Part shown: positions 19,390-58,365 of the stretch, piece after piece
Layout: each line of letters begins with the position of its first letter
How positions within the stretch are numbered: the stretch's first letter is position 1
Assembly: GCA_001969505.1 (NCBI GenBank)
Contig: LSSK01000518.1
Span: forward strand, 1 to 64,000
Direction: 5' to 3'
DNA: 64,000 nt
DNA from: Zancudomyces culisetae
Lineage: Eukaryota > Kickxellomycota > Harpellomycetes > Harpellales > Legeriomycetaceae
Program-made: the position numbers and the translations under genes
Notes under the pieces: model-generated
What the model was told of the DNA's origin: nothing
Database searches by the model: none
The model's input: the letters and a program-made list of their open reading frames with translations, nothing else

Positions 19390-21717
19390 TTCTGCTTTTA
19401 GTTCCCGATAAAGGATTAGTAATACATATGCTATCTGTGACTTTCAAAAGTGTAGATAGCGGGGAAATTGTGTATATTCGAGTTTTGATAATGTTTTATA
19501 TGTTTTATATGTTTGCTATTATAGTAATAGCGTTTTTTTTGAATTACCGATTTAAATATTGAACTTGGAGTAAAAATTTTGCTGTATATATAAAAACGAT
19601 AAAATATAAATAGATATAGGTAATGGTAATGGTTTGAAGAAAAAAAATCAGACATTTTCCACAGAACGCTATATTATGTTATACTATTCAGCTTTATTGA
19701 AAATCATCCTCGTATTATGTTTATTTTACGTAAGGCAAAATGTTTATTGAGAGTCTTAGAGTTTATTCGAATCGTTTTGCAACTATTTATAATCCATAAA
19801 TCTATTTTTAGTAAATTAAATATTAACATTGGGTATGTACAGAAATAGAGGTGGGAATTGGTGAATTGTTTGTAATACTATGGTCGGGTATTAGCTTAAT
19901 TGAATCGATGTTACAACAAAAACAAGAAAAGTAAATGATAAGAAAGCTTTCGGATATTTACTGATACCACTTAATGCTCGCATTTGTTTTCTCCCAAAAA
20001 AAAAAAAAAACAGAGAACAGGAAAATGTCTATTTTTCTAACGGTTTCTGCAAGATAGAGCAAATAGGTTTAAAAATCGAAAGTTCTTATGAGAACCACTA
20101 GCTAATCACAGCTCAACCAAAAACACACTAACAGTATCGCTATTACTAATTCAAGAAAAGTACTGCTTAACGTTTTAAGAGGTTGGTTGCAGACACTAAC
20201 ATGGGTGTAAGTCCGACAGATTACATACATCTTTCTATTGTGTAACTTTACATGGGAAATGAGCCGCTGTCCTATCTAGTACTAATAATAAATCTTTGAT
20301 ACACAAAGAGCTTCGTACATTTAATCCGCAAAAGTCGGGGGTGTATCTGAGGTAAAATCCTACAACCTTAGTATTTCTACATCATCCGATTTTCATGCTG
20401 GTATCCTTTCGCAAAACCTTCTTTCAACACAAATTTGTTGTCAGCGCACTTTTAGATAATTTTATCTGCTCATAATTTACTTTATAAATGAACGAAACAC
20501 CAATTTTTAAAAGCTTTTCCCATAAACTTCATACTATTAATATCAATTTCTGTATGTTAAACACCTAAACTTTGCAGAGTTGTATATCCAGGATAATATT
20601 CGGTTTTTATATCATAGTACTTGATATACAACACGAAAAAAAAGCATACAAAAGGACTACAGTGAAATAAAATTCAATTGGTTTGCTCTTTTGATGTATT
20701 TAACCCACACAACTCATATCTGCAAAAAAAGTAAAACAAATGGCGTTTAGTGACCCTCATCTATCTGATCAATTCAGAATCCAGTTTTTTATGTACGAGA
20801 TGTAGTTCTTACAAAAAATCTGTCCCCCTCTTCCCTCTCTTCCCCCCTTACCAGCTTTGCGCCTACACCTCATTAGCTGTATTTTGGCATTCAAAATTCT
20901 TTACAAATTAGGAAATTATGGTAGAATGAAATACCATACATTTCTGTAAACTTTAGGACAATTCTCAGCTAATGAGCTCTGGTAAACCCAAACGCCAAGA
21001 GATCTTTGTCTATAAAACCATGATGCGCATGCCTTTTTTTCAGTAAAATACATTTCTTGTGAGTGTGTTTAATTGGTACTCTAAAATGAAAAAGATAGGG
21101 AAATAAATATATTTCTTGAATTCCTTTTAAAAACCCCTTGCCTTTTTCGTCACCACTCCAAGAATGCTGACGATGCATATACTAGAATCAATAAATATCT
21201 AAACTCTGCGGTAAAAAGTCAAGTTTCTGTTGTAAAAAATATCCTACAGTTTTATGGTCAAGTAAAGCAATTAAACCAATTTTGATATTATATTAGTTCA
21301 TTTTCTAAATAGCGAAAACTACAACCACCAAGGCCTTGTAGCTTATCAACTATGCTACAATAATGAGAAAAATAAAAATAAGCATAGGGAAAGAAAAAAG
21401 AGCCCATTAGGCAATAGTCCGTTGATATAAAACAGCGAAGGAGAACCGAAATTATGCAAAGTTAAGCTGATAAACTAGCAATTTAGGTGGTTGTTAAAAT
21501 AAAATATTTGTTATTTGAAATTTTAATCTTTAGTAAACTGAACAAAAACGTTAAATTTAAAGCAAGCCTGTTTAAACCCTTTGATCTTATAATTAAAATA
21601 CAAACTTTTCTTTAATATATCTGTCAGTTCAACACTACAGTCATCAGAAATAGTAAAAATAAAAACACGAAAACACAAAAACACTCACCTAGCAGTCAGG
21701 TTGTATTAGGATTAGTT
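19390..21717. other. Long intergenic stretch, no gene recognised
   Basis: 2.3 kb of AT-rich sequence between two divergent genes, so it should contain both promoters. Open frames are below 75 codons. A minus-strand frame at 20969-21178 has an internal acceptor-like CATTTTAG but no recognisable product. No tRNA or repeat was recognised. Confidence 0.5.
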
Positions 21718-22239
21718 ATGATGGTTACCAAATATTTCAAGATATTTGTTGCTTTGATGGCTATAACTACAGGTAAAGAACATGTGCAATGTGGCGGTAA
21801 AACAGATGCGTCTGCCTACGGCAAAACCGTTAATAATACGTTTGTATTATATTGCAACAGTGCAGAGGATTGTTTTGCGTTTGGGAATGTTGTTGGGTGC
21901 AAAAATGGAGAAAGCGGTGAGGTGACATATCGGTATACTCACATTCTGGACAGTAGTATGCAAGATGTGTATAAAAAGAGTGACCAAAGGCTATTTAGTC
22001 ATCGTATCATTTCAAAATTTATACCTCGTAATATCCGTAAAGGATCACCAAGCGTTTCAGGGTCAAAACCACCTAGTTCATCTGGATCATCAAACCCGTC
22101 ACGTAACCCTGTGATCGCAGGAAAGCCACCCCGTCCTGTCCGCACGAGTCAGGCTTCCACCATTAAAACTGGGCGGGATTATTTCTACTGTTGTTTCTTG
22201 ATACTTTTTTATTATGTCATTGTGCTATCCCGCTTTTAA
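21718..22239 (+). CDS. Small secreted or GPI-type protein, unknown
   Basis: A 173-residue protein I do not recognise. It has an N-terminal signal-like hydrophobic stretch (about residues 5-19), a short region with four or five cysteines (CGG, LYCNSAEDC, VGC; about residues 25-61), and a Ser/Pro/Gly-rich linker (about residues 108-148) typical of O-glycosylated cell-wall spacers. It ends in a C-terminal hydrophobic segment (about residues 155-173) that could be a GPI signal or a tail anchor. Two ATGs are adjacent at the start; an A-rich leader precedes them. No intron was needed. A surface or secreted role is inferred from topology only. The downstream neighbour is the KAT14 gene on the same strand. 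Confidence 0.7.
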   Translation: MMVTKYFKIFVALMAITTGKEHVQCGGKTDASAYGKTVNNTFVLYCNSAEDCFAFGNVVGCKNGESGEVTYRYTHILDSSMQDVYKKSDQRLFSHRIISKFIPRNIRKGSPSVSGSKPPSSSGSSNPSRNPVIAGKPPRPVRTSQASTIKTGRDYFYCCFLILFYYVIVLSRF

Positions 22240-22678: not shown

Positions 22679-24741
22679 ATGGAGAAAGGGGAAAAAAGGG
22701 CCAGGCACGTCAATGTAGAGTAAGTAATTGTAATAATAAAGTAAAAAAAACAATTACATTTGGAGGGCTAGAGGCCAGACTGATAAAAATCAACTTACAA
22801 CATAGGGTGTTTGGGAAGATTATATGCAACAAATGTGGCGAAAGCTATGGATATGGTAGGGCTAGAAGTTATAAACTTATAAACTACGAGAAATAGCATG
22901 GTTTAGCTAAACTTTGGCCATCTAACCAAATAGAGAGATCAGGAATGAAATTGGAACAGCTGCATGGCGATTGTTACTATAATTTTACGTGTGCTAAATG
23001 TAATAACGGGGAGGACAAGTATGAGAGAACGCAGATTAGTTGGTAAGTCTACATGAATGGAGAATGGGTGTGAATAAGGGGGTGATGGGTTAGTATTCTG
23101 CATTCTTCAAGTGTGCAAATTTAAGCGATCAGAAGAGTTAAAATGTATTAATAACGATCATAGGGTGCAGGCAGTGCATTTAATTATGTACCACTTGAAA
23201 ATGGAAGAGCCAGAAAAGAAGTATTTCAAGTGGAAAGAAAACATATGTGCGAAATTTGACAAGTACTGGGATTATTTGATGCCAGAGAAGATCAGAACGC
23301 CAACGTGGCACAATACGGTAGCTGGATGTATTTCTACGCACAATGCGCTTTTCAAGTCGGGATTTGAGGAAACTCAGCAAAATGGATACTGGGCATTGGC
23401 GCATTTGGAAAAGCCATGCCGCGATGGATTTAGCAGTTCGACTCGACTTAAAGAAACAAACAAAGAGTTGAAAACAGGAATAAAATCGGAAGGAAAAGGA
23501 GGGGTGAATGGTTCTGGAACGGGAGCAAATAGAAAGAAAAAAAAGAAGAGACCAAACACAGAAGGTGAGAAGGGTGGCGAGGAGGTCACATCGGGAAAAG
23601 TAAAAATATATTACGAAAGCGAAGGAAGCAGTATTGACGAGGATATCATTTTATCAGATGGCGAAGGCTGGTCTAGTGATAAAAGTGTGGAGGAGTATAA
23701 CCACAGTAAACAATTATTTATTCAGACATACACATACAAGAAGAGTGGAATAACTCAAAAATTAAGGTAAATTGATAAAAAATAGCATTTTCTTTATTTA
23801 AAAAAAGAGGGTTTAAGATAAATGAAGTCAAAAGCAATGTATGTGAAATACTACAATAGGAACGACTACAACTTACTAATTTAAAAAAGAAAATTTATCA
23901 GAATATAAAATACAATACTACAACAAATTAAAGATACAATACAATACAAGCGACAAGAACGAGAACAGAAACAACTATTGAAAATATGAACAAAGAAACA
24001 AGAGAAACACGTATCGCAAAACTGCGAGAAAGATTTGAAAAAACTAAAGAGAAAAGAAAAGCAAGAAAAAACACGCTGAAAGAAAGAACAAAAGACGATA
24101 TACAGCAAAACACAACATACGAGAGATCGTTTGCTAGAAGACTGTATGGATTAGATGTGGCTCACGAGGAGAAAGAGGCGAGAATTAGTGAATATTCGGG
24201 GATGAAGTTGTCTCGGATTATCTGGAGCTACACAATTGACGGGTTGAGGCAACCAGCGCGGCTAAAAATGCATAGCTACATAAAGGGTGTTAGAGCAGCA
24301 GGGCGGATAGAGTTTCGGTATGTTAAAAGCGAGGATTTACAGCAGATCAACGAAATGCTTGAAAATATATTTTGGCCAGGAATAGACATGTCAGACTCGC
24401 TTTCGACGCCCGAGTATTCAGTCGTCGCCACATATAATACATTTGTTATAGTTGGCTGTGCGTTCTTGTCTCCTATAGATTCATATCTATCATATATAGC
24501 AGTTCGGCCGGGTTGGGAATCGTGTGGGATAGCAAAGCACATGTTGTATTTATTAATCAAGTTGTCGCCAAGCAAAGACATTACGTTACATGTTTCAGTT
24601 ACCAACTCGAATGCACTGCTGTTGTATAATAAGTTTGGGTTTAAACCTGAGCAGTTTGTGGTTGGGTTTTACGATTCGTATTTCCCAGTAAACTCGTGGT
24701 TGTGTAGAGATGCATTTTTTATGAGACTTCGGTGTGTTTGA
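22679..24741 (+). CDS. KAT14: KAT14 (CSRP2BP) histone acetyltransferase homologue
   Basis: A GNAT-family protein; in animals KAT14 is an integral acetyltransferase subunit of the ATAC chromatin complex. Exons: 22679-22719, 22806-22855, 22934-23042, 23164-23766 and 23934-24741, all GT-AG and in phase, 536 residues. The N-terminal part has a zinc-finger-like unit (IICNKCGES and FTCAKCNNGEDKYER), then a winged-helix region (YFKWKENICAKFDKYW, TWHNTVAGC, NGYWALAHLEKP). A Lys/Gly and acidic linker follows, then a helix before the catalytic domain (ISEYSGMKLSRIIWSY) and the GNAT fold: FFWPGID-like IFWPGIDMSD, CGIAKHML as the acetyl-CoA loop, TLHVSVTNSNALLLYNKFGF and a FFMRLR end. Human KAT14 has 782 residues, so the middle is shortened. 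If the last intron is not used, a separate 251-residue GNAT protein would start at ATG 23986; conserved order of both halves favours one gene. Confidence 0.85.
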
Positions 24742-24943: not shown

Positions 24944-24970
24944 TAAAGTAAACTAAATGTTCAAACTAGA

Positions 24971-26583
24971 ATGGAAAAAACAACAAATATAAACAAAAAA
25001 CTTTTGGTATATGGAGCCGTCTTACGGCTAGCAATGCTGATTTTGGGCGAGTACCTAGATACAACAAAGACAACGTATACCGATATCGACTATTTTGTGT
25101 TTACGGACGCAAGTAGATATGTTTTCAACCTACAAAGTCCTTACCTCAGAGCAACCTATAGGTATACGCCACTTCTATCGTGGCTACTGGTTCCAAATAT
25201 TTTTGTTCACAAGGCATTTGGAAAATTACTATTTGTGGGTTTTGACCTAGCTATTGGTGTAGTTTTGGATTTGATTTTGGAAGAACGGATCGAAACGGCA
25301 AATCTGGTTGCAGCTACAAGGGGAGCTGAAAGAAAGGCACTTGGAGATCAGTACCAATCGATAAAAAATACAAACAGAATTGAAAACGAAAACAAAAGTA
25401 AAAGTAAAAGTAAAAGCAATAATGCCTACACATTACTGGAACCCAGTACTATTAGCACCAATAATGCGTGTGGCAAGATCAACAAGTCGGTTTATTTAGG
25501 GCTATGGCTATTAAATCCAATAGTTGCGAACATTTCGACTCGGGGAAACAGCGAGAGTATGATAAGCGTTGTGGTTTTGCTTTCACTATACTATTTCACA
25601 AGAAAGAGGTACGACTTATCAGCAGTACTTTTTGGACTTTCGGTGCATTTAAAAATATACCCAGCGGTGTATTGTGTACCGATTTTGGTAATCTTAGCGG
25701 GAGACAAGGCGTATGGATATTACGAGTTTCTGCCCAAAATATTCAACAAGAGACAATATAGGTTTGGAATTATAAGTTTTGGGGTGTTTATGGGTCTGAA
25801 TGCTTTGATGTACATGATAAATGGTCATGAATTTCTCTCAGAAGCCTTGCTTTATCACTTTTCACGAAAGGATCACCGCCACAACTTTTCGGTTTGGTTT
25901 TTATCAATCTATCAACTGTACAACTCACCCTCCATCAAACTGTACAGCTTGTTGTTTTCCTTCTTGCCACAGCTATTCACTGTGATATTGGTAGGGATCA
26001 AGTTTGGAAACGATTTGTATTTTGCAGCATTTTGTCAAACTTTTGTGTTTGTGATTTTCAACAAGGTTTATACTGCTCAGGTAAGTCTTTTTTAATTTTT
26101 TTTTGGGGGGGGGCGGGGAGGTTGTAGTTGGATTTATGGGTAGTGTATTATTTATTCATTTATTTACACATTTACGATTGCTATGGTATAGTATTTCATG
26201 TGGTTCTTTAGCTTTTTGCCTATAATATTTCCATTTACCAACATTAAATTGAGATACAAGGGGATCTTTTTGATTCTACTTTGGATAGCTTCACAGGTAA
26301 TAACTGCATATACATACTAATATAAATTATACATTATAAACTATACATTTACACATTTACGTATACTTTATCGTCACTACATTGTTGAAAGTAATACTAA
26401 AAATGCATAAAATATTAGGCATACTACTTGAATATTGCAAACCAGTTTGAAAACATGGGAATGAATGTATTGTACGAGCTATGGGTTTCGAATATCATTT
26501 TATTTGTTTCAAATGTGTATATTTTGATAGAGTTGATTAATAACCAAAACATTATACCCATTGACAAAATCAAGATTGCATAG
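24971..26583 (+). CDS. PIGM: GPI mannosyltransferase I (PIG-M / Gpi14)
   Basis: Adds the first mannose (alpha-1,4, from dolichol-phosphate-mannose) to the GPI precursor in the ER membrane. Exons: 24971-26080, 26192-26296 and 26419-26583, in phase, 459 residues, close to family length. Multi-pass protein with the family N-terminus: TDIDYFVFTDASRYV (DxD-like catalytic loop between the first membrane segments), SPYLRATYRYTPLLSWLL, then GLWLLNPIVANISTRGNSES and HLKIYPAVY. The short exons encode YFMWFFSFLPIIFPF and the last membrane segments. A low-complexity Lys/Ser/Asn insert (about residues 110-155, from an AAAAGT repeat) enlarges a loop. The start is the first ATG. GPI-type surface proteins in this window (4.2 and 21.7 kb) would be its kind of client. 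Confidence 0.93.
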
Positions 26584-38736: not shown

Positions 38737-41700
38737 CTAGTGATACCAAGATTCAAAATTATAGACATTAAACGCATTCCACACACAATGTATTGGAGGA
38801 GTAGGACTGGGTCTGCTGGCATGACCATCGTTGCTGTTGCTATTTTTGTCGGTATTCGAATGCTCAAATTCAAAGTGTACATTTGGAACTTCGCAAACCA
38901 AATGATCCTTGATAAAAAACAGAATCTGGGAATTCATTGGGTTGTAACCAAAGGTGAGCCAGGATGAATTGATTAGGTTTGGTGGCGGAGGTGATGGAGA
39001 TGATAAAAGTGATGGCGAAGACCTAGTGCTTGGAGAAGAATAACCAGGTGTACCGTCCCTGGTGTCTTGAATATTAGTGTCAAGTGGGTAAAATGATACA
39101 TCATCACTACTGTTCACAGGTTCTTTACCTTTACCATTTATGGCTGTTGTTGTTGTTGCTGTGAAAGAACTGTGGTTGTGGTTGTGGTTGTGATGAAGCA
39201 TAAATTTGGTGTGTGAGTCAACCAGATAATTATAAATGCGCTTGCCAGTAATATCGGAAAAACGGCTATCTTTATGTAGAGAAGACTCTACTGTTGGGAC
39301 TGTTGAATCCAGACAAGTGGATGAGGCGAGCTTATCAATGATATTATCAGCTTTGCAGATTACAAGGTACCAAGAAAGATAAACAGAAGAGCTGTCACAA
39401 TCGTGAGGATTGCTATCATCATGATAATCATTATGATTGTTTTTGTTGTTGTTGTTGTCATTGTCATCACTGTCGTAGTCAGAATGGTTGGTTTGTGGAA
39501 GACAAAATGGAAGTGTTGGCAAACAAAGTAGGGATAGGTAGATGTTTGTAAAGGGAATTTTGGAATAGACAAAGGGGCAAGAGCCGAAAGAGGGAGAGGT
39601 AGAATGACGAGCGACAGAGAGTTTTGGATATGCAAACCTAATGCTTTCAAAAGATGAAGAGTTAAAAGATGGTTGAGAAAGATGGTGTTGATCATCCGAA
39701 TCCAACCCTACATCCAAACCATAAAGGGTAGAGGCAAAAGTATTTGTGGGAATGGGAAATCTTGCGTATTGAGAATCAGAAGACAAAATAGAAACGGGGA
39801 TAGAGGAAGGTGATGGAGAGGGTAAAAGGTATTCATAGTTCCAGGGCAGAAACTTGACGCCCTGATACTGCGAGAGACTAATAGCGGGGAACCAAAGCCG
39901 CGGATTTTCAGGTGGAGTGGGAAGGTAGCTAAACAAACCAGAAGAATCATTTTGGGCACCAGCACCAAAAATAATGCCATGTTGCACACCGTTGACCAAT
40001 AACTCAACAGTGTTGGAGACACAGTGGTAAGTCAAGGTCACAATGTCACCAGGATGCCAGCGGCCGCCAAACTCATCATACGTCGAAATGCCATACCAAC
40101 GACATTTCCGGAATCCATCAAAGGCAATAGACTCAGAGTCGTCGTCGCCAACACCCTTGCCGCTGATTGGGTACTGAACGGACTTGTCGGTTACGAAGCC
40201 AACCTGCATTAGACCGCCAGTCAGCAGCTGAACGGAAAACGAAACCTTGTCCAGAATTCCAGAGCTGCGAACATTGGGACCATACATCGGATATTGCGAA
40301 GTTATGGTGACAAACTCAAAAGAAGTGTTGAACACACTGGACTGGCTCGATATAAACACCAGTGGGTCGTACAAATTGTCGCGCACATGGCGGAACTGGC
40401 TGTTGCCAACAGTTAAGCCACAGCGCCGAGTTAATTCCGGAGTCTGTAGCGGTTTGTCACTGATAGTCCGTTTTAGCAGGATTGAGCGAGCCATAACTGC
40501 GGATATTTCGGTGCTAAACATACTGCGTTTGTAGATATTGTCTTTTTTTGGACCTTTGATGGTACTAAGACAATCTGACACCGAAGCATCAATTACATTG
40601 TTGAACACGAGCGTTCGCTGGTTAAACCCACTACCTTCTAAACCGTCATTTTCTCCATCTTCTGATGCAGTATAGTACAAGTCACCCAGCAAACCCTTAT
40701 TGTAATCACCTTCACTCTGGCCTCTTTTAATTATCATGACTCTTGTATTGGGTTTTGGCGATGATTCCTGTGTTTTTTTCTGTTGAGCTGCTGCTAAGTC
40801 TTCGATTTTCTGTTCACATTCTACTTTACAATAGTCTACCAAAAGTTCAACTATTTTGTTGGTTTTGTGCAGCGAACAATTGTCTAATGGAATGTTCTTG
40901 ACCAAAAATAACTCCAACCCGCGTGGAGTGAACGGCGCCTTGTTGATGGCTTGGGCTAGTATACATATCTCTTCGCAATCTTCTTTAACGCCCACAATGT
41001 TCCCTAACGCCATCACTGCCAAATGCAACAGTGTCAGCTCCATAGTCAGATGAAGGTTTTTAAGCCATTCACTAACCGACCTGTTAGCCCTGTCTTCTGC
41101 ATTCCTCTCTTCTTCCTTGTCCCTCTTTTCTCGCCCGTTTCCAGCTGCTGGTATTGTCTTGATAACCATTGATTCTTGGATGCCTGTAGCCGTCTCCTGT
41201 GCGGAATTCAGCCCTGTGGTTCCTATCAACTGCTTTGATTTCTTTATCAAACTCGATGCCTCGCTACTTCTACCTTTTCTTGTTTCTGTAAAAACTGTTC
41301 TAAACTCATCAGACCCCAAAACCCTCATTACTCGTCTGAAAAATCCCCGTTTATTATCCCCATTGCTGTACTTTACCAATGTGTCCCATAGCTTATATTT
41401 CGCCTCTTTCTTCACAGCCGTCACTCCCCCACTTCCCACTGCTTGATTTGCCACATACTTCAATGTTAATATTCCTAAAAGCATGGCTGTCAGATCCATC
41501 AACAACTTGGTAATTTTGTCCCATTCTCCCGGCTTGCCTACTCCCGCCAACATATCAATCCATTTTACCACGCTCAATGAATCCACCGTACTTAAAAAGT
41601 TCGAAATACCCATTGTAAGCTTTCGTGGCATATCTGCCTGTTCAGCCTCCGTTTTATTCGTCGAAGTAATCGTCCCATAAACATTGACATCACACTCCAT

Positions 41701-43473
41701 CTCCTTCATCAGTGCCTCCAATCGTTTCTCAAACCGGTCCATAAATAACCTGACACATTTGACTTTGACCTCTGCAGGATTTACCTTTTCAAATATCAAC
41801 AACGCCAAAATCGATTTCACTACCTGTAAACTAATCGTATCGTATTCCTTATTCCCAAATAATCCATACACCCAATCTCTAAGGTCTGGATCGAAATATC
41901 TTGTAGCTGTTTCGTTATCACTTGAACAAACCCCTATAATTGCCGAAACCAAATTCATCCTCACCTCCAGCGCATCTGTCTGAACTAGCTTTTTAAATAT
42001 CGATTTTACGCCCTTGTGCTCTCCAACTCGTTTTCCCACCGCTTTGGAGTTAAACAAATTCAATATTATTACAGACAACGCTTGGCACATTTGGATACTA
42101 TAATTCTTGTCTGGCTGGTCAATGTAACTCTCCCCAACCTCAAAAATATCACTACTCAAGATTAGTCCATGGGTTTTGACGTTGGATGATATCGTGGGCA
42201 ATAGTGTCATTGCCCAGTAGCACGTTTCGTAGTCCTTGTACGTAAAAAGCCCCAGTATCCGCTGTATAACTTTGGATTCTACTATTTCCTCTATAAACTT
42301 GTCTGAATCCGTCTTATCTGATAGTATGTACCAATATATCCTTAATATAAGCTGGTTTGAATACACCACCTTGGTCACCGACAAGTGCTGCCCAAGTAGC
42401 CCCGTAAACCCCTTGATCTTTCTAAACTTTGTCCGACCCACGTTTTTCAGCACCAGCTCGTGAATCATTCCTATAGACCACGATAAAATCCCTTGATCTT
42501 CTTTGTGTAGTGAAGTGCACAAAAACTCTGCTATCCCCATTTCCAGCATCAGCTCAAACTTTTCCGTTTTTATCTTTTCATATTCCTTTGTTGGGTTGGT
42601 TGCCATTCTGACCATTGCCTCTAAAATGCTTCGGTTTATCGTTACATCTGCAGTAAACCCAGTGGCCAATTCGTAAATATTTATCATTATATCCTTCTCC
42701 AGCATTTGCAAACAATACTCCCCCTCAAGTGACAACTTGTGTATTATCTTTATTATACTCTCTATCATATTGTATGGATAGTTGCTATATTCATTCAACA
42801 CCTCATGCATTTTGTCAATAATTGCTTCTAGATTTTCTTGCAGCCCACCCCTCTTGACCGTTTTCATCGTAGAATGGTCGATAATATTATACAACGAGTT
42901 AAATACCAGTTCTAAAATCTGTGGACGCGTTTCCCTCGATAAAATATCTGTCAATACCTGGATCACACCCTCCTCAACCATCTTTTTGCAGTATGTTTTC
43001 TTTTCTGTCAAACTCAAGAGCACCATAACCGCCGCTTTGATTCTATCCTTGTTTCTACTTTCCATACATACTGCAAATAGCTGTCGCAGGTTTTTCTTTA
43101 CCGTAAGTGTCGAATACAAAACCTTTTCCGCCTTGACTCTCGTTTTGTGATCTGGAGATTGGCTCAACAGGTACACTGCCATCTCCTTCATATACCTTTG
43201 TCTCTCTCTTGGGCCCCATCTATATAATAACCCCGGAACAACTTCATTATGCTCGTTTATCAGCTCGTCCAGAGCGAGTTCTCCGCTTTCTCTCTCCTCT
43301 TTTTTTCTCACACGCCTTTTCTTCTTGTTTTTGCCTGATTGCTTCCCATTTGCCTCACTATCTGTAATGTTCTCATTAAAATTGTCGAATTGAGTTTTAA
43401 TATGGTAAATGATTCCTAGCACACCCAGCGCCACTGCCACATTTACGATCAAATTTACGTTTTTCGACTCCAT
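38737..43473 (-). CDS. Membrane-anchored armadillo-repeat + SPRY protein
   Basis: A 1578-residue intronless protein. Start is the ATG at 43473 (MESKN); upstream in-frame codons lack ATG. One membrane segment lies at about residues 8-25, followed by a basic stretch (KNKKKRRVRKKE), so the bulk is probably cytosolic. Residues about 60-700 are armadillo/HEAT-like helices (for example AVMVLLSLTEKK, LELVFNSLYNII, LVSAIIGVCSS). Residues about 1045-1215 form a SPRY/B30.2 domain with VQVGF-like GGLMQVGF, the GRWHPGDIVTLTYHC and VELLVNGVQHG strands and LWFPAISLSQ. The last 360 residues are low-complexity Ser/Pro/Asn with a possible second lectin-like piece (WLTFGYNP, ILFFIKDH). ARM+SPRY combinations occur in uncharacterised eukaryotic proteins; I know no function. 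It ends tail to tail with the oxidoreductase gene, 268 bases apart. Confidence 0.82.
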   Translation of the reverse strand: MESKNVNLIVNVAVALGVLGIIYHIKTQFDNFNENITDSEANGKQSGKNKKKRRVRKKEERESGELALDELINEHNEVVPGLLYRWGPRERQRYMKEMAVYLLSQSPDHKTRVKAEKVLYSTLTVKKNLRQLFAVCMESRNKDRIKAAVMVLLSLTEKKTYCKKMVEEGVIQVLTDILSRETRPQILELVFNSLYNIIDHSTMKTVKRGGLQENLEAIIDKMHEVLNEYSNYPYNMIESIIKIIHKLSLEGEYCLQMLEKDIMINIYELATGFTADVTINRSILEAMVRMATNPTKEYEKIKTEKFELMLEMGIAEFLCTSLHKEDQGILSWSIGMIHELVLKNVGRTKFRKIKGFTGLLGQHLSVTKVVYSNQLILRIYWYILSDKTDSDKFIEEIVESKVIQRILGLFTYKDYETCYWAMTLLPTISSNVKTHGLILSSDIFEVGESYIDQPDKNYSIQMCQALSVIILNLFNSKAVGKRVGEHKGVKSIFKKLVQTDALEVRMNLVSAIIGVCSSDNETATRYFDPDLRDWVYGLFGNKEYDTISLQVVKSILALLIFEKVNPAEVKVKCVRLFMDRFEKRLEALMKEMECDVNVYGTITSTNKTEAEQADMPRKLTMGISNFLSTVDSLSVVKWIDMLAGVGKPGEWDKITKLLMDLTAMLLGILTLKYVANQAVGSGGVTAVKKEAKYKLWDTLVKYSNGDNKRGFFRRVMRVLGSDEFRTVFTETRKGRSSEASSLIKKSKQLIGTTGLNSAQETATGIQESMVIKTIPAAGNGREKRDKEEERNAEDRANRSVSEWLKNLHLTMELTLLHLAVMALGNIVGVKEDCEEICILAQAINKAPFTPRGLELFLVKNIPLDNCSLHKTNKIVELLVDYCKVECEQKIEDLAAAQQKKTQESSPKPNTRVMIIKRGQSEGDYNKGLLGDLYYTASEDGENDGLEGSGFNQRTLVFNNVIDASVSDCLSTIKGPKKDNIYKRSMFSTEISAVMARSILLKRTISDKPLQTPELTRRCGLTVGNSQFRHVRDNLYDPLVFISSQSSVFNTSFEFVTITSQYPMYGPNVRSSGILDKVSFSVQLLTGGLMQVGFVTDKSVQYPISGKGVGDDDSESIAFDGFRKCRWYGISTYDEFGGRWHPGDIVTLTYHCVSNTVELLVNGVQHGIIFGAGAQNDSSGLFSYLPTPPENPRLWFPAISLSQYQGVKFLPWNYEYLLPSPSPSSIPVSILSSDSQYARFPIPTNTFASTLYGLDVGLDSDDQHHLSQPSFNSSSFESIRFAYPKLSVARHSTSPSFGSCPFVYSKIPFTNIYLSLLCLPTLPFCLPQTNHSDYDSDDNDNNNNKNNHNDYHDDSNPHDCDSSSVYLSWYLVICKADNIIDKLASSTCLDSTVPTVESSLHKDSRFSDITGKRIYNYLVDSHTKFMLHHNHNHNHSSFTATTTTAINGKGKEPVNSSDDVSFYPLDTNIQDTRDGTPGYSSPSTRSSPSLLSSPSPPPPNLINSSWLTFGYNPMNSQILFFIKDHLVCEVPNVHFEFEHSNTDKNSNSNDGHASRPSPTPPIHCVWNAFNVYNFESWYH

Positions 43474-44082
43474 TTCTTGTATTGTATCCAAATATTTTAT
43501 CTAACATAGTTTCTTGTATTTTAGCTTATTTGAAACATGAAATTAAACAATTTAAATTACGTTAACTAAGCTGCACCAATGAATGTTGCGATAACTGGCG
43601 GAGAAATATTGCTTCAAAATCTGGTTACAAGATAGGGTTGGACTAGGTTAGAAATGCAAGAATGGAGGGAAAAGAAAAAGAAAGTGATGCTCTCATAAAA
43701 GTCGAATTACACCTGCACAGCAGTCACGTCTAATTAGTAGGATCTTCCTCCCACTTTCTGTCTTCAATACCACCATGAAATGTTATTCGCCTAGTAAAAC
43801 CGGAATCAAGAATGTTGATCAAAGTTATGACTGTGTCTGGGCGGGTAAATACGTTTACATGTTTTTATTTAGCTCAATTGTTAAATATGAAATAATGGTT
43901 TAATTGGAAAACAAGCCAAAAAATATTTTAAATACTCTCCTTATCTCCCTATCTCTTCTTCTCTCTTTTATAGATTGGGAAACTCTAATCATCAAAAAAG
44001 AAGCGTATATACCAAGGGAGAAACGTGAACGGATATATAGATATACTATATCTGCTGTTTCTGAACGCTAAAGTTATATTCT
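43474..44082. other. Intergenic spacer
   Basis: 600 bases between the ARM/SPRY start and the subtilase stop (both minus strand), holding the ARM/SPRY promoter. No coding or RNA feature recognised. Confidence 0.55.
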
Positions 44083-55000: not shown

Positions 55001-55722
55001 AACTTGGTTAGATGAATATATAGAAAATGGTGCAAACTTGAGGGAGGGGGGAGGCAGCTTTGTTTTGTTGAGCTAAAATTTCACATTTACGTCTATACCT
55101 GTGTCAATAACATTTAGGTAAAATTGCGCAATTCTTTTTTTCAATCTATTTTGATTAATTGTGATTAAAAAGAAAAAAACTAGTGCCATAGACATAATAG
55201 GTACGCCAAAAAAGGAGAAAGAATGTGTGATAAGTATAGGATTGGATGGCTATAGATTGGTAAATTTGTGATTGGGCCATTACTCTAAGGAGGTGGAAAA
55301 ACAAAAAAGTTTTTGAAAAAAAATATAAATGCGAGTTGTAATGGAGTTGGAGACAGTTTTGCAACAGACATTCAAAATCGCAGACAACACAAGCTTGGCT
55401 TTTTTAAAAACAAAATCATATATATAAGTACAATTTAGCAAGAAACCTGAATAAAATACACAGGTTTATACCAAACGGAAACAATGCGTAATAGGTAGAG
55501 TCAGGGTGGACTTTCATTACTTTTTTCCGATTTGCATGGAGTGCTTTTAGGATAGGAAATTAACTACGAAAAAGCGAGAAATAGCTGAAAAATAGCGATA
55601 TAATATTACAAGTTAAATAATCTCAATACCATTACCTTCTCTTTTTCATACCATAAGGATCACATCAAAAATAACAAAACCCAATATAAGGTTCGTACAT
55701 ATGCAGTTACAAAAGACCAAAG
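52053..55722. other. Longest gene-free stretch (3.7 kb)
   Basis: AT-rich sequence between divergent genes. Short frames on either strand are low-complexity or unrecognised. It contains GATG/GTGTGAACATG short repeats at about 53690-53800 and a T17-like tract near 54290-54305. Its length, immediately upstream of a transcription-factor-like gene, suggests a large regulatory region, but I can point to no specific binding site. Confidence 0.5.
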
Positions 55723-58365
55723 ATGGAGAGAATTTCAAGATATTCGTTCAACAGCTCTGTAAAAGAGAGTAGTCCATATCAAAGGGTGTTAGGATCGGGG
55801 AATGATAGTATTGGAAAAGAAGTGAAGGTGAATATGACAGAATATCAACACAACACTGAGCAAGTGGATGCTACAGATTTTGAAAGGTACAATGGATATA
55901 GCAGATACATGGAAAAAGGACAATATTACCACGAAGAGCAGTATAGAAACAACAACAATAAAAACAAAAACAACAGCAGTATAGAAATATGTAGTACACC
56001 TGAACTCAACTTTGGCCAGTCCGGCTATAACTATAGCAAGCCAGCTAGTAAAGAACAGGGTTTAAATCACAAATCCCAATATTTGGAGTATAGTACGAAA
56101 ATGCGAGAGAATTTTTATGAAACAAGAACGAAAAGAGAATTCGAATTCGTACGGGATTCGACCACCAATAACGTGGGCACAAACTATAACAGTTTATACA
56201 GTACGAGATATAGCTCTACAGGAGGCGAGAGCTCAAGTGGGAGTTTTACCACGAATGACGGCGACGATGATCATAAATATACAAACAGTTTAAAACGACC
56301 GAGGTCGTACGATATGTACCAGACATCTGATGAGATCAACAGCGTCGATATGAAGTATCGGAACAGGGGTAAATCCAACGAGCTGAGCTGGGCGCAGGCT
56401 GAGAATGCGGAGGGTTATAAGGTTAGAAAGTTAGACAGTGGTGATGGTGGTAGCGGCATCGATGGTAGAAATGTGGCAGAAGAACCAGAAAGCTATCACA
56501 CAAACCCCAACGAACATAACCACAATTATAGCCACGAACACCAGTATAGACATGAGACTCAACTTCATTACAATGATAGTCATAGCAGTGGTAATCTCTA
56601 TGATAGCTATTATTGTGATTATTACGGTAACCAAAAGAAGAACAAAAAAGAATTTGAGGATACGCGGGATGACAAGAGAGTGAAGATAGTGGTAGAAACA
56701 GCACCAATGATTCTTCCTACAGCAATAGGCGAAAGAAGCAAAGACGATTCACTGGCTGCCCATCAAACTAATGAAGGAAGCCTTGAATATGAGATGATGG
56801 ATAATCCTCAGCACCATCACCATCACCACCACTCTCTACATCAACAACGACAGAGCCAGCATGATCAGTCTAGCATTCATAACACTATGCTAAGGAGTTA
56901 TGGGATTCCTCAGCCATACTTTTCACATGAAAATTTATACGAAGATGTCGAAGACGAGGATGAGGATGATGACGATGAGGAAAATCAGGGTATTTACAAG
57001 GTTGATAGCCGGAAGAGCGTATACATCTCGCCACCCAGATACAAAAGTTATGAGATGGAATCCGACATTCAAAGTCTGGGGCTAGGAAAGCCACCACAAG
57101 AAAAGACCGTTACAAAAAGTGGTTTGACTACTGGGGATAACGTAATGTCGATAAGCAACCTAATTTTTGCACATGATAGCATCGAAGATCAACGTACTGG
57201 AGGCGATGAGCATCCAAGGGAGAAAAAAACAACCAGCAACCCACTACTAGGGATAACAGATTTTATTCGCACCGAGTTGGAGCAACTGAAAACTCGGGAT
57301 TGTACTGAACCCACCACAAATAAGATTTGCGACGAAGACTCCTCAAAAACCACAACATCCGTTGTAAAACCACAAAGGCGAAGGAAACTAAGTATTGGCA
57401 ATAACAAAAAAAAGAAAACCGATGCTCCTGGAAAGAAACCACACGAGAATGTCGCCGTCCAGGAAAATGTACAAGTAAACAACTCAGATGACAAAAACCA
57501 AGAAACTCTTGATGTATCAACAAAACTGGATATTCCAAAAGAAGCATATGCCGAGGCTCAGTCTCTATACGACCAAATAAAAGGAACAAAAACCATCCAG
57601 AGCCGCCGACCGGTCCAGAAAAAAGCATCTATAATTGCTGCACTGCTATTTATCATATGTAAAAACAAAGGATACCCACGAACATTCAATGAGATTTGTA
57701 GCGCTACAAAAGTCTCAAAACGAGATATAGGGATGTACTATAAACTAATAAAGGCTCTGGTGGTGCTTCCTGGCATTGAAACCTCCGAAGATTCACTCAC
57801 GCAACATCTCAATCCAAATGACTTTATTAAACGCTGGTGTATGTTCATGTCATTGCCTGAGGTTGTTTTCAATTCAGCTATTTTTATGTATCACAAGGCA
57901 GACCAGCTAAACCTGGTAATTGGGAAGTGTCCTGTAAGTATTGGTGCCACGTGCATTTGGCTGATTGTTTGGTGTTTGCAGAGACTTGATTTTCTCATTG
58001 AACTAGATTTTAAACTCCCTGAGAATACTTTTGTCAACTCTGCTGGTGTCCCGACAGTCAAATCATCCCCTTCAGCTCCACCACGAAAACTTTTATCACT
58101 TTCCTCATCACTACGTCCCATTTTATCCATATCTGCATCTTCTGCATCCACATCTACACCATCTCCCCCGTCTACAACATCTCCGCCCTCCCTCCCCGAT
58201 AGCAGCTACCCATATTCCGGCATCTCTTTAAAGGATGTTTGCAAGGTGACCAATGTCACTCCCACAACACTTTTGTCCGTCTTTAAATTGCTTCTTCCAA
58301 GCCTTCACAGTCTACTTCCCCTAACCTTTGTTTCTGATGTGTCACAGCTGATTTCTTTGGAATAA
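55723..58365 (+). CDS. TFIIB-like core protein with disordered N-terminus
   Basis: An 880-residue intronless protein. Residues 1 to about 600 are low-complexity and hydrophilic (Tyr/Asn/Ser-rich, a His run HHHHHHHH near residue 365, an acidic run EDEDEDDDDEE near 415, a basic stretch RRRKLSIGNNKKKK near 553). The C-terminus carries a TFIIB-type cyclin-like core. Repeat 1 (about 606-690) has QKKASIIAALLFIICKNKG, PRTFNEIC and VSKRDIGMYYKLIKAL, matching TFIIB's PRTFKEI and SKKEIGRCFKLI landmarks. Repeat 2 (about 697-880) has CPVSIGATCIWLIVW and ISLKDVCKVTNVTPTTLL, interrupted by a Ser/Pro insert at about 775-825. No CxxC zinc ribbon is visible anywhere, unlike true TFIIB (about 310-345 residues). 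It is probably a divergent TFIIB paralogue acting in gene regulation; the general factor should be elsewhere. Confidence 0.75.
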   Translation: MERISRYSFNSSVKESSPYQRVLGSGNDSIGKEVKVNMTEYQHNTEQVDATDFERYNGYSRYMEKGQYYHEEQYRNNNNKNKNNSSIEICSTPELNFGQSGYNYSKPASKEQGLNHKSQYLEYSTKMRENFYETRTKREFEFVRDSTTNNVGTNYNSLYSTRYSSTGGESSSGSFTTNDGDDDHKYTNSLKRPRSYDMYQTSDEINSVDMKYRNRGKSNELSWAQAENAEGYKVRKLDSGDGGSGIDGRNVAEEPESYHTNPNEHNHNYSHEHQYRHETQLHYNDSHSSGNLYDSYYCDYYGNQKKNKKEFEDTRDDKRVKIVVETAPMILPTAIGERSKDDSLAAHQTNEGSLEYEMMDNPQHHHHHHHSLHQQRQSQHDQSSIHNTMLRSYGIPQPYFSHENLYEDVEDEDEDDDDEENQGIYKVDSRKSVYISPPRYKSYEMESDIQSLGLGKPPQEKTVTKSGLTTGDNVMSISNLIFAHDSIEDQRTGGDEHPREKKTTSNPLLGITDFIRTELEQLKTRDCTEPTTNKICDEDSSKTTTSVVKPQRRRKLSIGNNKKKKTDAPGKKPHENVAVQENVQVNNSDDKNQETLDVSTKLDIPKEAYAEAQSLYDQIKGTKTIQSRRPVQKKASIIAALLFIICKNKGYPRTFNEICSATKVSKRDIGMYYKLIKALVVLPGIETSEDSLTQHLNPNDFIKRWCMFMSLPEVVFNSAIFMYHKADQLNLVIGKCPVSIGATCIWLIVWCLQRLDFLIELDFKLPENTFVNSAGVPTVKSSPSAPPRKLLSLSSSLRPILSISASSASTSTPSPPSTTSPPSLPDSSYPYSGISLKDVCKVTNVTPTTLLSVFKLLLPSLHSLLPLTFVSDVSQLISLE

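Follow-up and report, generated by a model that had tools for sequence, protein, structure and literature searches.

A compact KAT14 (CSRP2BP/ATAC2) orthologue and candidate ATAC partner genes in the fungus Zancudomyces culisetae

The locus and its gene model

The genome assembly of Zancudomyces culisetae, a member of the Harpellales (Kickxellomycota), comprises 23.1 Mb in 859 contigs. The window analysed here, a stretch of 64,000 nucleotides with a base composition of 36% GC, contains on the plus strand a candidate gene at positions 22679-24741. According to our splice model the gene consists of five exons and encodes, from the ATG to the last base of the stop codon, an uninterrupted protein of 533 aa (Table 1). 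The coordinates of the original prediction are correct, with start and stop codons at the two ends, and the four introns it proposed are reproduced as four GT-AG introns which keep the reading frame. A gene encoding the GPI mannosyltransferase PIG-M adjoins at 24947-26095 on the same strand, and upstream lies a small ORF (21616-22239) with, as judged by eye, a signal-like N-terminus and several cysteines.

Table 1. Exons and introns of the candidate gene; positions refer to the window.
Feature	Position	Strand	Content and basis
Exon 1	22679..22719	+	start codon at 22679; splice model
Intron 1	22720..22805	+	GTAAGT...TAG, 86 nt; splice model
Exon 2	22806..22855	+	first CxxC pair (IICNKCGESYGY); splice model, aligned with KAT14 relatives
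Intron 2	22856..22942	+	GTAGGG...CAG, 87 nt; same residue interrupted in the C200 paralogue
Exon 3	22943..23042	+	second CxxC pair (GDCYYNFTCAKC...ISW); splice model and alignment
Intron 3	23043..23163	+	GTAAGT...TAG, 121 nt; same position (ISW) in the paralogue
Exon 4	23164..23766	+	winged helix (about 23165-23410), then charged, low-complexity linker; AlphaFold model and PDB matches
Intron 4	23767..23933	+	GTAAAT...AAAG, 167 nt; alternative reading as intergenic gap between two genes
Exon 5	23934..24741	+	basic helix region (about 24004-24055), GNAT (about 24301-24738), stop; Pfam, AlphaFold and GNAT matches

Support for the individual boundaries differs. Introns 2 and 3 are backed independently by a paralogue present on contigs C200 and C406, which is interrupted at identical residues. 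For exon 1 no confirmation by homology was obtained, as tblastn with the N-termini of the relatives yielded no upstream exon, and in the same search intron 1 received no homology support; a search further upstream for an exon carrying the N-terminal motif known from Coemansia and Paraphysoderma was negative. For intron 4 at least three phase-compatible acceptors can be seen by eye within about 30 bases, 23958 and 23964 being further possible first bases of exon 5, and this ambiguity concerns up to about 10 residues of the model.

The N-terminal and the C-terminal half belong to one protein only if intron 4 is spliced; left unspliced, the locus would comprise two neighbouring genes, one for an N-half protein (22679-23770) and one for a stand-alone GNAT protein starting from the ATG at 23986. 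Such an arrangement would agree with the near-invariant columns of the C-half alignment, all of which lie 3' of this ATG (residue 283 of the model), with intron 4 being the longest of the introns and ambiguous in its acceptor, and with the existence of lone halves, namely the GNAT-only proteins P0051 and P0060 of basidiomycetes and the C200 paralogue, apparently an N-half only. We nevertheless regard two genes as quite unlikely, because the aligned full-length relatives (P0001, P0003, P0007, P0011, P0015 and P0024) are single proteins and intron 4 keeps the frame between GT-AG ends. For the locus we infer one transcript across intron 4.

Domain composition and family membership of the protein

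The protein begins with a cysteine region, which in the spliced model has only two CxxC pairs; the further zinc ligands known from Kickxella and Hydra were not found in the alignment of the window protein. For exon 4 (23165-23764, 39-row alignment) AlphaFold predicted a winged helix with block means of the pLDDT of 95-98 across the first 80 residues and low confidence beyond them. The nearest PDB structures of this model are PHF1, MTF2 and Polycomb-like, followed by ASH2L. The C-terminal half matches the Pfam family Acetyltransf_1 at 24406-24642 with 35.3 bits (cut-off 20.7), and the model of exon 5 (23935-24738, 45-row alignment) shows a GNAT fold with a mean pLDDT of 85 and 420 PDB matches at E ≤ 0.001, which are GNAT enzymes with Naa50 as the best. 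A sequence search against solved structures returned six distinct sequences, belonging to PHF1/MTF2/Pcl and NAA50, with no KAT14 among them.

The original prediction had described a zinc-finger/winged-helix N-terminus followed by a GNAT domain, with a much shortened middle. The winged helix, the GNAT domain and their order stand, whereas of the zinc finger the spliced model retains no more than two CxxC pairs. The shortening is real as well: the window protein has 533 aa, six measured fungal relatives have 739-925 aa, and two animal proteins 696-853 aa; a similarly compact homologue of 569 aa occurs in the blastocladialean Paraphysoderma. The order of cysteine region, winged helix and C-terminal GNAT is that of animal KAT14 (CSRP2BP/ATAC2), in which the cysteine region is PHD-like. 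The window protein differs from animal KAT14 in its overall length, its short linker and one-residue insertions within the GNAT domain, and it differs from Hydra and Kickxella, both with a fuller PHD-like set, in its two CxxC pairs.

With the 533-aa protein as query, 63 homologues at E ≤ 0.001 were identified in a large protein database. The best homologue derives from Mycoemilia scoparia (5.8e-98), Coemansia also ranks at the top, and fungi occupy each of the first 20 rows; Kickxellomycotina and chytrids head the list. Named fungi account for 25 of the 63 rows, distributed over 24 taxa. Four fungal rows (P0014, P0017, P0018 and P0019, including Geranomyces and Mortierella) are already titled ‘Cysteine-rich protein 2-binding protein’; many others are ‘hypothetical protein’ or nameless, among them the Kickxellomycotina homologues of the same family, and the fragment P0054 is titled as a RimI-like enzyme. 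Names for fungal KAT14 and ZZZ3 thus exist in protein databases, and the window gene is an added member of a known family. No row from Zancudomyces was present among the 63 homologues, so its database annotation probably lacks a single protein of comparable length for this gene. GNAT-only proteins of the KAT14 type, 343 and 405 aa long and lacking the N-half, were observed in the basidiomycetes Sphaerobolus and Clathrus (P0051 and P0060).

A profile of the KAT14 C-half, built from 22 of these hits and the window protein, matched 61 of the 63 homologues; the remaining two, P0043 and P0047, are N-half pieces. It scores the GNAT domain of the window protein at 304.6 bits (3.1e-92), the sequence of the window protein being itself part of the profile. 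When the window protein was aligned with 13 selected hits, the conserved blocks followed one another in the same order (winged helix, basic helix, ‘TPY..SF.SRL.G’, GNAT), and the GNAT motifs of the KAT14 type (FWPGID ... KDITLHV ... FYD.Y.P ... AF..RLR) are found in the window protein. On this sequence evidence it is near certain that the gene is an orthologue of KAT14. The assignment made in the original prediction is borne out by the profile, by the split between fungi and animals in the tree described below (100/100), and by the GNAT and winged-helix models.

As the closest solved structures of the N-half are the winged helices of PHF1/MTF2/Pcl and a weak Pfam match points to the winged helix of ASH2L, the N-half could alternatively be an ASH2 or Polycomb-like protein joined to a GNAT domain from an unrelated acetyltransferase. 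The winged-helix fold is common to all of these proteins and the window protein, both in sequence and in the model; neither the PHF1/MTF2/Polycomb-like nor the ASH2L family is known to possess a GNAT domain. The Pfam score for the ASH2L winged helix is 18.9 against a cut-off of 25, the known KAT14 of Hydra stays below the threshold in the same way (24.3), and the PDB sequence matches offered no KAT14 for comparison. In the window protein no SPRY domain was matched by Pfam and a GNAT is present instead, which departs from the ASH2 architecture of PHD and winged helix followed by SPRY, and a separate ASH2-like gene with SPRY is located on contig C718, distinct from the window gene. Moreover, both halves occur together in 43 of the 63 homologues as judged by crude motifs of each half, many of them full-length. 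A composite origin of this kind is thus hardly conceivable, and the KAT14 assignment outlasts the comparison with ASH2.

With regard to catalysis, the acetyl-CoA loop of the window protein reads WESCGIA, with Glu in place of the Arg or Gln that is usual in GNATs. Glu is also found in nine of 11 aligned fungal relatives, and Gln in both aligned animals. Among the one-residue insertions revealed by the alignment, the one ahead of the A-x-x-LY-x-K-x-GF block is confined to the window protein, all 13 aligned relatives lacking it. Judging from the modelled fold, acetyltransferase activity is likely but unproven, and because of the insertions and the Glu in the acetyl-CoA motif it is not assured.

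Descent and duplication

Two trees were used to trace the origin of the gene. The first comprised the window protein and 42 of the 63 hits (21 were omitted, chiefly near-copies from flies and fragments) and separated 24 fungal rows, including the window protein, from 11 animal rows by a branch with 100/100 support, eight rows being without an organism name. In this tree the window protein grouped with ten rows of Kickxellomycotina (95/99), and in the second, with 21 chosen rows, with five (100/99). Its branch is long in both trees (2.42 and 2.07) and its letter make-up is unusual, which flags the placement as less sure. Fungal and animal KAT14 thus form the two sides of one branch, and the family is at least as old as the ancestor that fungi share with animals.

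Z. culisetae inhabits the gut of aquatic insect larvae, and evidence for horizontal transfer in this species is mentioned (both PMC12611240), so that acquisition of the gene from an insect host has to be considered. The trees place the window protein within the Kickxellomycotina (95/99 in the first), with all 11 grouped animal rows across the 100/100 branch; the top homologue is Mycoemilia and no insect. A clade of the window protein and seven Diptera was rejected in the 21-row tree (p-AU 0.003), and an insect origin was discarded on this basis as a practically negligible alternative. With the fungi apart from the animals, and the window protein within the Kickxellomycotina, the gene was inherited.

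Searched against the whole genome, the window protein matched its own locus, the ASH2-like gene on C718 and a second gene of the KAT14 type on C200 (6760-5872, minus strand, locus L056), of which a copy lies on C406 (4709-3821, L057). C200 and C406 align at 99.4% identity over 4950 bases and at 99.2% over 1991 bases. This paralogue codes for the cysteine region and the winged helix; its N-half is 56% identical to that of the window protein over 151 columns, and a tree built from 20 N-half rows places the two as sisters (99/97). In the region C200:1-9000 no GNAT was detected, neither by tblastn with seven KAT14 proteins including that of the window (best GNAT-half E 3.3, upstream of the gene) nor by the KAT14 C-half profile (best E 3.6). 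By the sister relationship of the N-halves and the lack of a detectable GNAT near the C200 gene, KAT14 was duplicated in the Zancudomyces lineage and one copy appears to have lost the enzyme half. Redundant or allelic contigs are probable in this assembly, as C200 and C406 are about 99% identical and C101/C526, C19/C27/C409 and C129/C291 gave equal scores.

Partner genes and the putative ATAC-like complex

KAT14 is known from ATAC, which a 2021 review (PMC8194025) describes as specific to metazoans, with the ADA2A/ADA2B pair confined to higher eukaryotes; a 2024 review (PMC11439848) assigns the ADA2 paralogue pair to metazoans. YEATS2 and ZZZ3 are components of the same complex (PMC8143797, PMC6138639). 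In a literature search which was not exhaustive, no report on a fungal KAT14 or a fungal ATAC was recognised, and earlier reports are possible.

The YEATS domain encoded on contig C542 (about 4233-1684, minus strand, L027) reaches 105.2 bits with human YEATS2 compared with 68.2 for YEATS4 and 51.1 for Yaf9, and it matches solved YEATS2 structures at 2.6e-29; we take the gene to be the YEATS2 orthologue. When this candidate was searched against the large protein database, none of 48 candidates was found at E ≤ 0.001; since the domain matches the YEATS2 structures so well, we attribute this result to the pre-filtering by word and length. By eye no C-terminal histone fold was seen at the locus. 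Upstream of the YEATS domain, on the same strand, a helix-like charged coding stretch was noticed by eye, and further on an exon resembling C2H2. Two other YEATS loci, on C113 and C804, were judged by eye not to be YEATS2.

A ZZZ3 orthologue was detected at C101:26506-26697 and on C526 (L036) with an approximate human fragment, which matches with 66% identity over 64 residues. The ORF shares 69% identity over 67 aa with hamster ZZZ3 in the SANT domain, and the 96 residues searched are 100% identical to an entry titled ‘ZZ-type zinc finger-containing protein 3 [Zancudomyces culisetae]’. In this Zancudomyces protein no ZZ finger was detected, only the Myb domain; many of the 65 ZZZ3-type matches, from Kickxellomycotina and Mucoromycota, possess both Myb/SANT and ZZ. 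Of the 24 fungal taxa with a KAT14 row, nine recur among the 44 fungal taxa of the ZZZ3 list, and by virtue of the window gene Zancudomyces itself adds a tenth; length and word filters restrict both lists, so that absence from them means little.

The genome furthermore contains genes for ADA3, SGF29 and GCN5, the latter found with an approximate yeast fragment. ADA2 is represented by a single locus on C271. A search with human TADA2A for a second ADA2 returned only this locus and weak matches with E values of 0.09 or worse, by which a strongly diverged copy could be missed. Of the four pieces of the ADA2 protein, some resemble human TADA2A more closely and others TADA2B (both sequences approximate), the pattern to be expected if ADA2 never duplicated. 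The SWIRM matches on C19, C27 and C409 are located away from the ADA2 gene. For MBIP no match was found in the genome with an approximate query and without a positive control. WDR5 and NC2-beta (DR1) are common to other complexes and not diagnostic of ATAC. Of the partners proposed for a search in the original prediction, YEATS2 and ZZZ3 were thus recovered and a second ADA2 was not found. The GCN5 and ADA2 genes (C271:3279-4843 and C271:19104-20656) lie about 14 kb apart on the one contig.

Like human and Drosophila ATAC, Zancudomyces encodes KAT14, YEATS2, ZZZ3, GCN5, ADA3, SGF29 and an ADA2. It differs in having a single ADA2 in place of ADA2a and ADA2b and a ZZZ3 without a detectable ZZ finger. 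We consider it most likely, with a probability of roughly 70%, that the window gene is a KAT14 orthologue, inherited from the ancestor that fungi share with animals, which acts in an ATAC-like complex acetylating histones. A short flexible linker would connect the winged helix and the reduced, zinc-binding N-terminus to the C-terminal GNAT, and the protein would operate within a coactivator together with YEATS2, ZZZ3 and the GCN5-ADA2-ADA3-SGF29 module. Its GNAT domain would acetylate nucleosomal histones, H4 by analogy to animals; the HAT activity of human KAT14 resides in its C-terminal part, and H4K5ac on core histones increases when KAT14 is added (PMC6503952). YEATS2 and ZZZ3 may read and position the complex, the N-half of KAT14 may serve assembly or chromatin contact, and the single ADA2 would have to be used by both SAGA and the ATAC-like complex.

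Alternatively, KAT14 could work outside ATAC in this fungus, for instance as a free-standing acetyltransferase or in a different chromatin complex. A second ADA2 and, with the approximate and uncontrolled query, MBIP were not found, and a ZZ finger was not detected in ZZZ3. This alternative is weakened and we hold it to be unlikely, as the ATAC components YEATS2 and ZZZ3 are kept although about 20% of the fungal BUSCO genes are missing in Z. culisetae (PMC12611240), and as ZZZ3 co-occurs with KAT14 in other fungi as given above. The notion put forward in the original prediction, that part of ATAC is older than animals, gains support from the orthology of KAT14 and the presence of YEATS2 and ZZZ3 genes, assembly of the products being presumed.

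Much of ATAC thus probably predates the animals. As a tentative extension, for which we would not claim even odds, ATAC may have existed in the shared ancestor of fungi and animals before the split of ADA2a and ADA2b, built around one ADA2 shared with SAGA, and may persist in reduced form in Zancudomyces, with a full-length KAT14 copy in the window and a GNAT-less copy on C200/C406 from which a non-catalytic variant of the complex could be formed. The presence of KAT14, YEATS2 and ZZZ3 in a fungus with one detectable ADA2 sets the origin of the ATAC subunits apart from the duplication of ADA2, and the age and ancestral make-up of ATAC become testable in a fungus. If this holds true, the model yeasts lost ATAC and are not primitively without it.

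Two further ORFs of the window may be recorded. A protein with TFIIB repeats and a very long, low-complexity N-terminus is encoded at 55690-58365, and on the minus strand an ORF of 1587 aa (38737-43500) shows weak armadillo-type matches and a SPRY match slightly under the cut-off.
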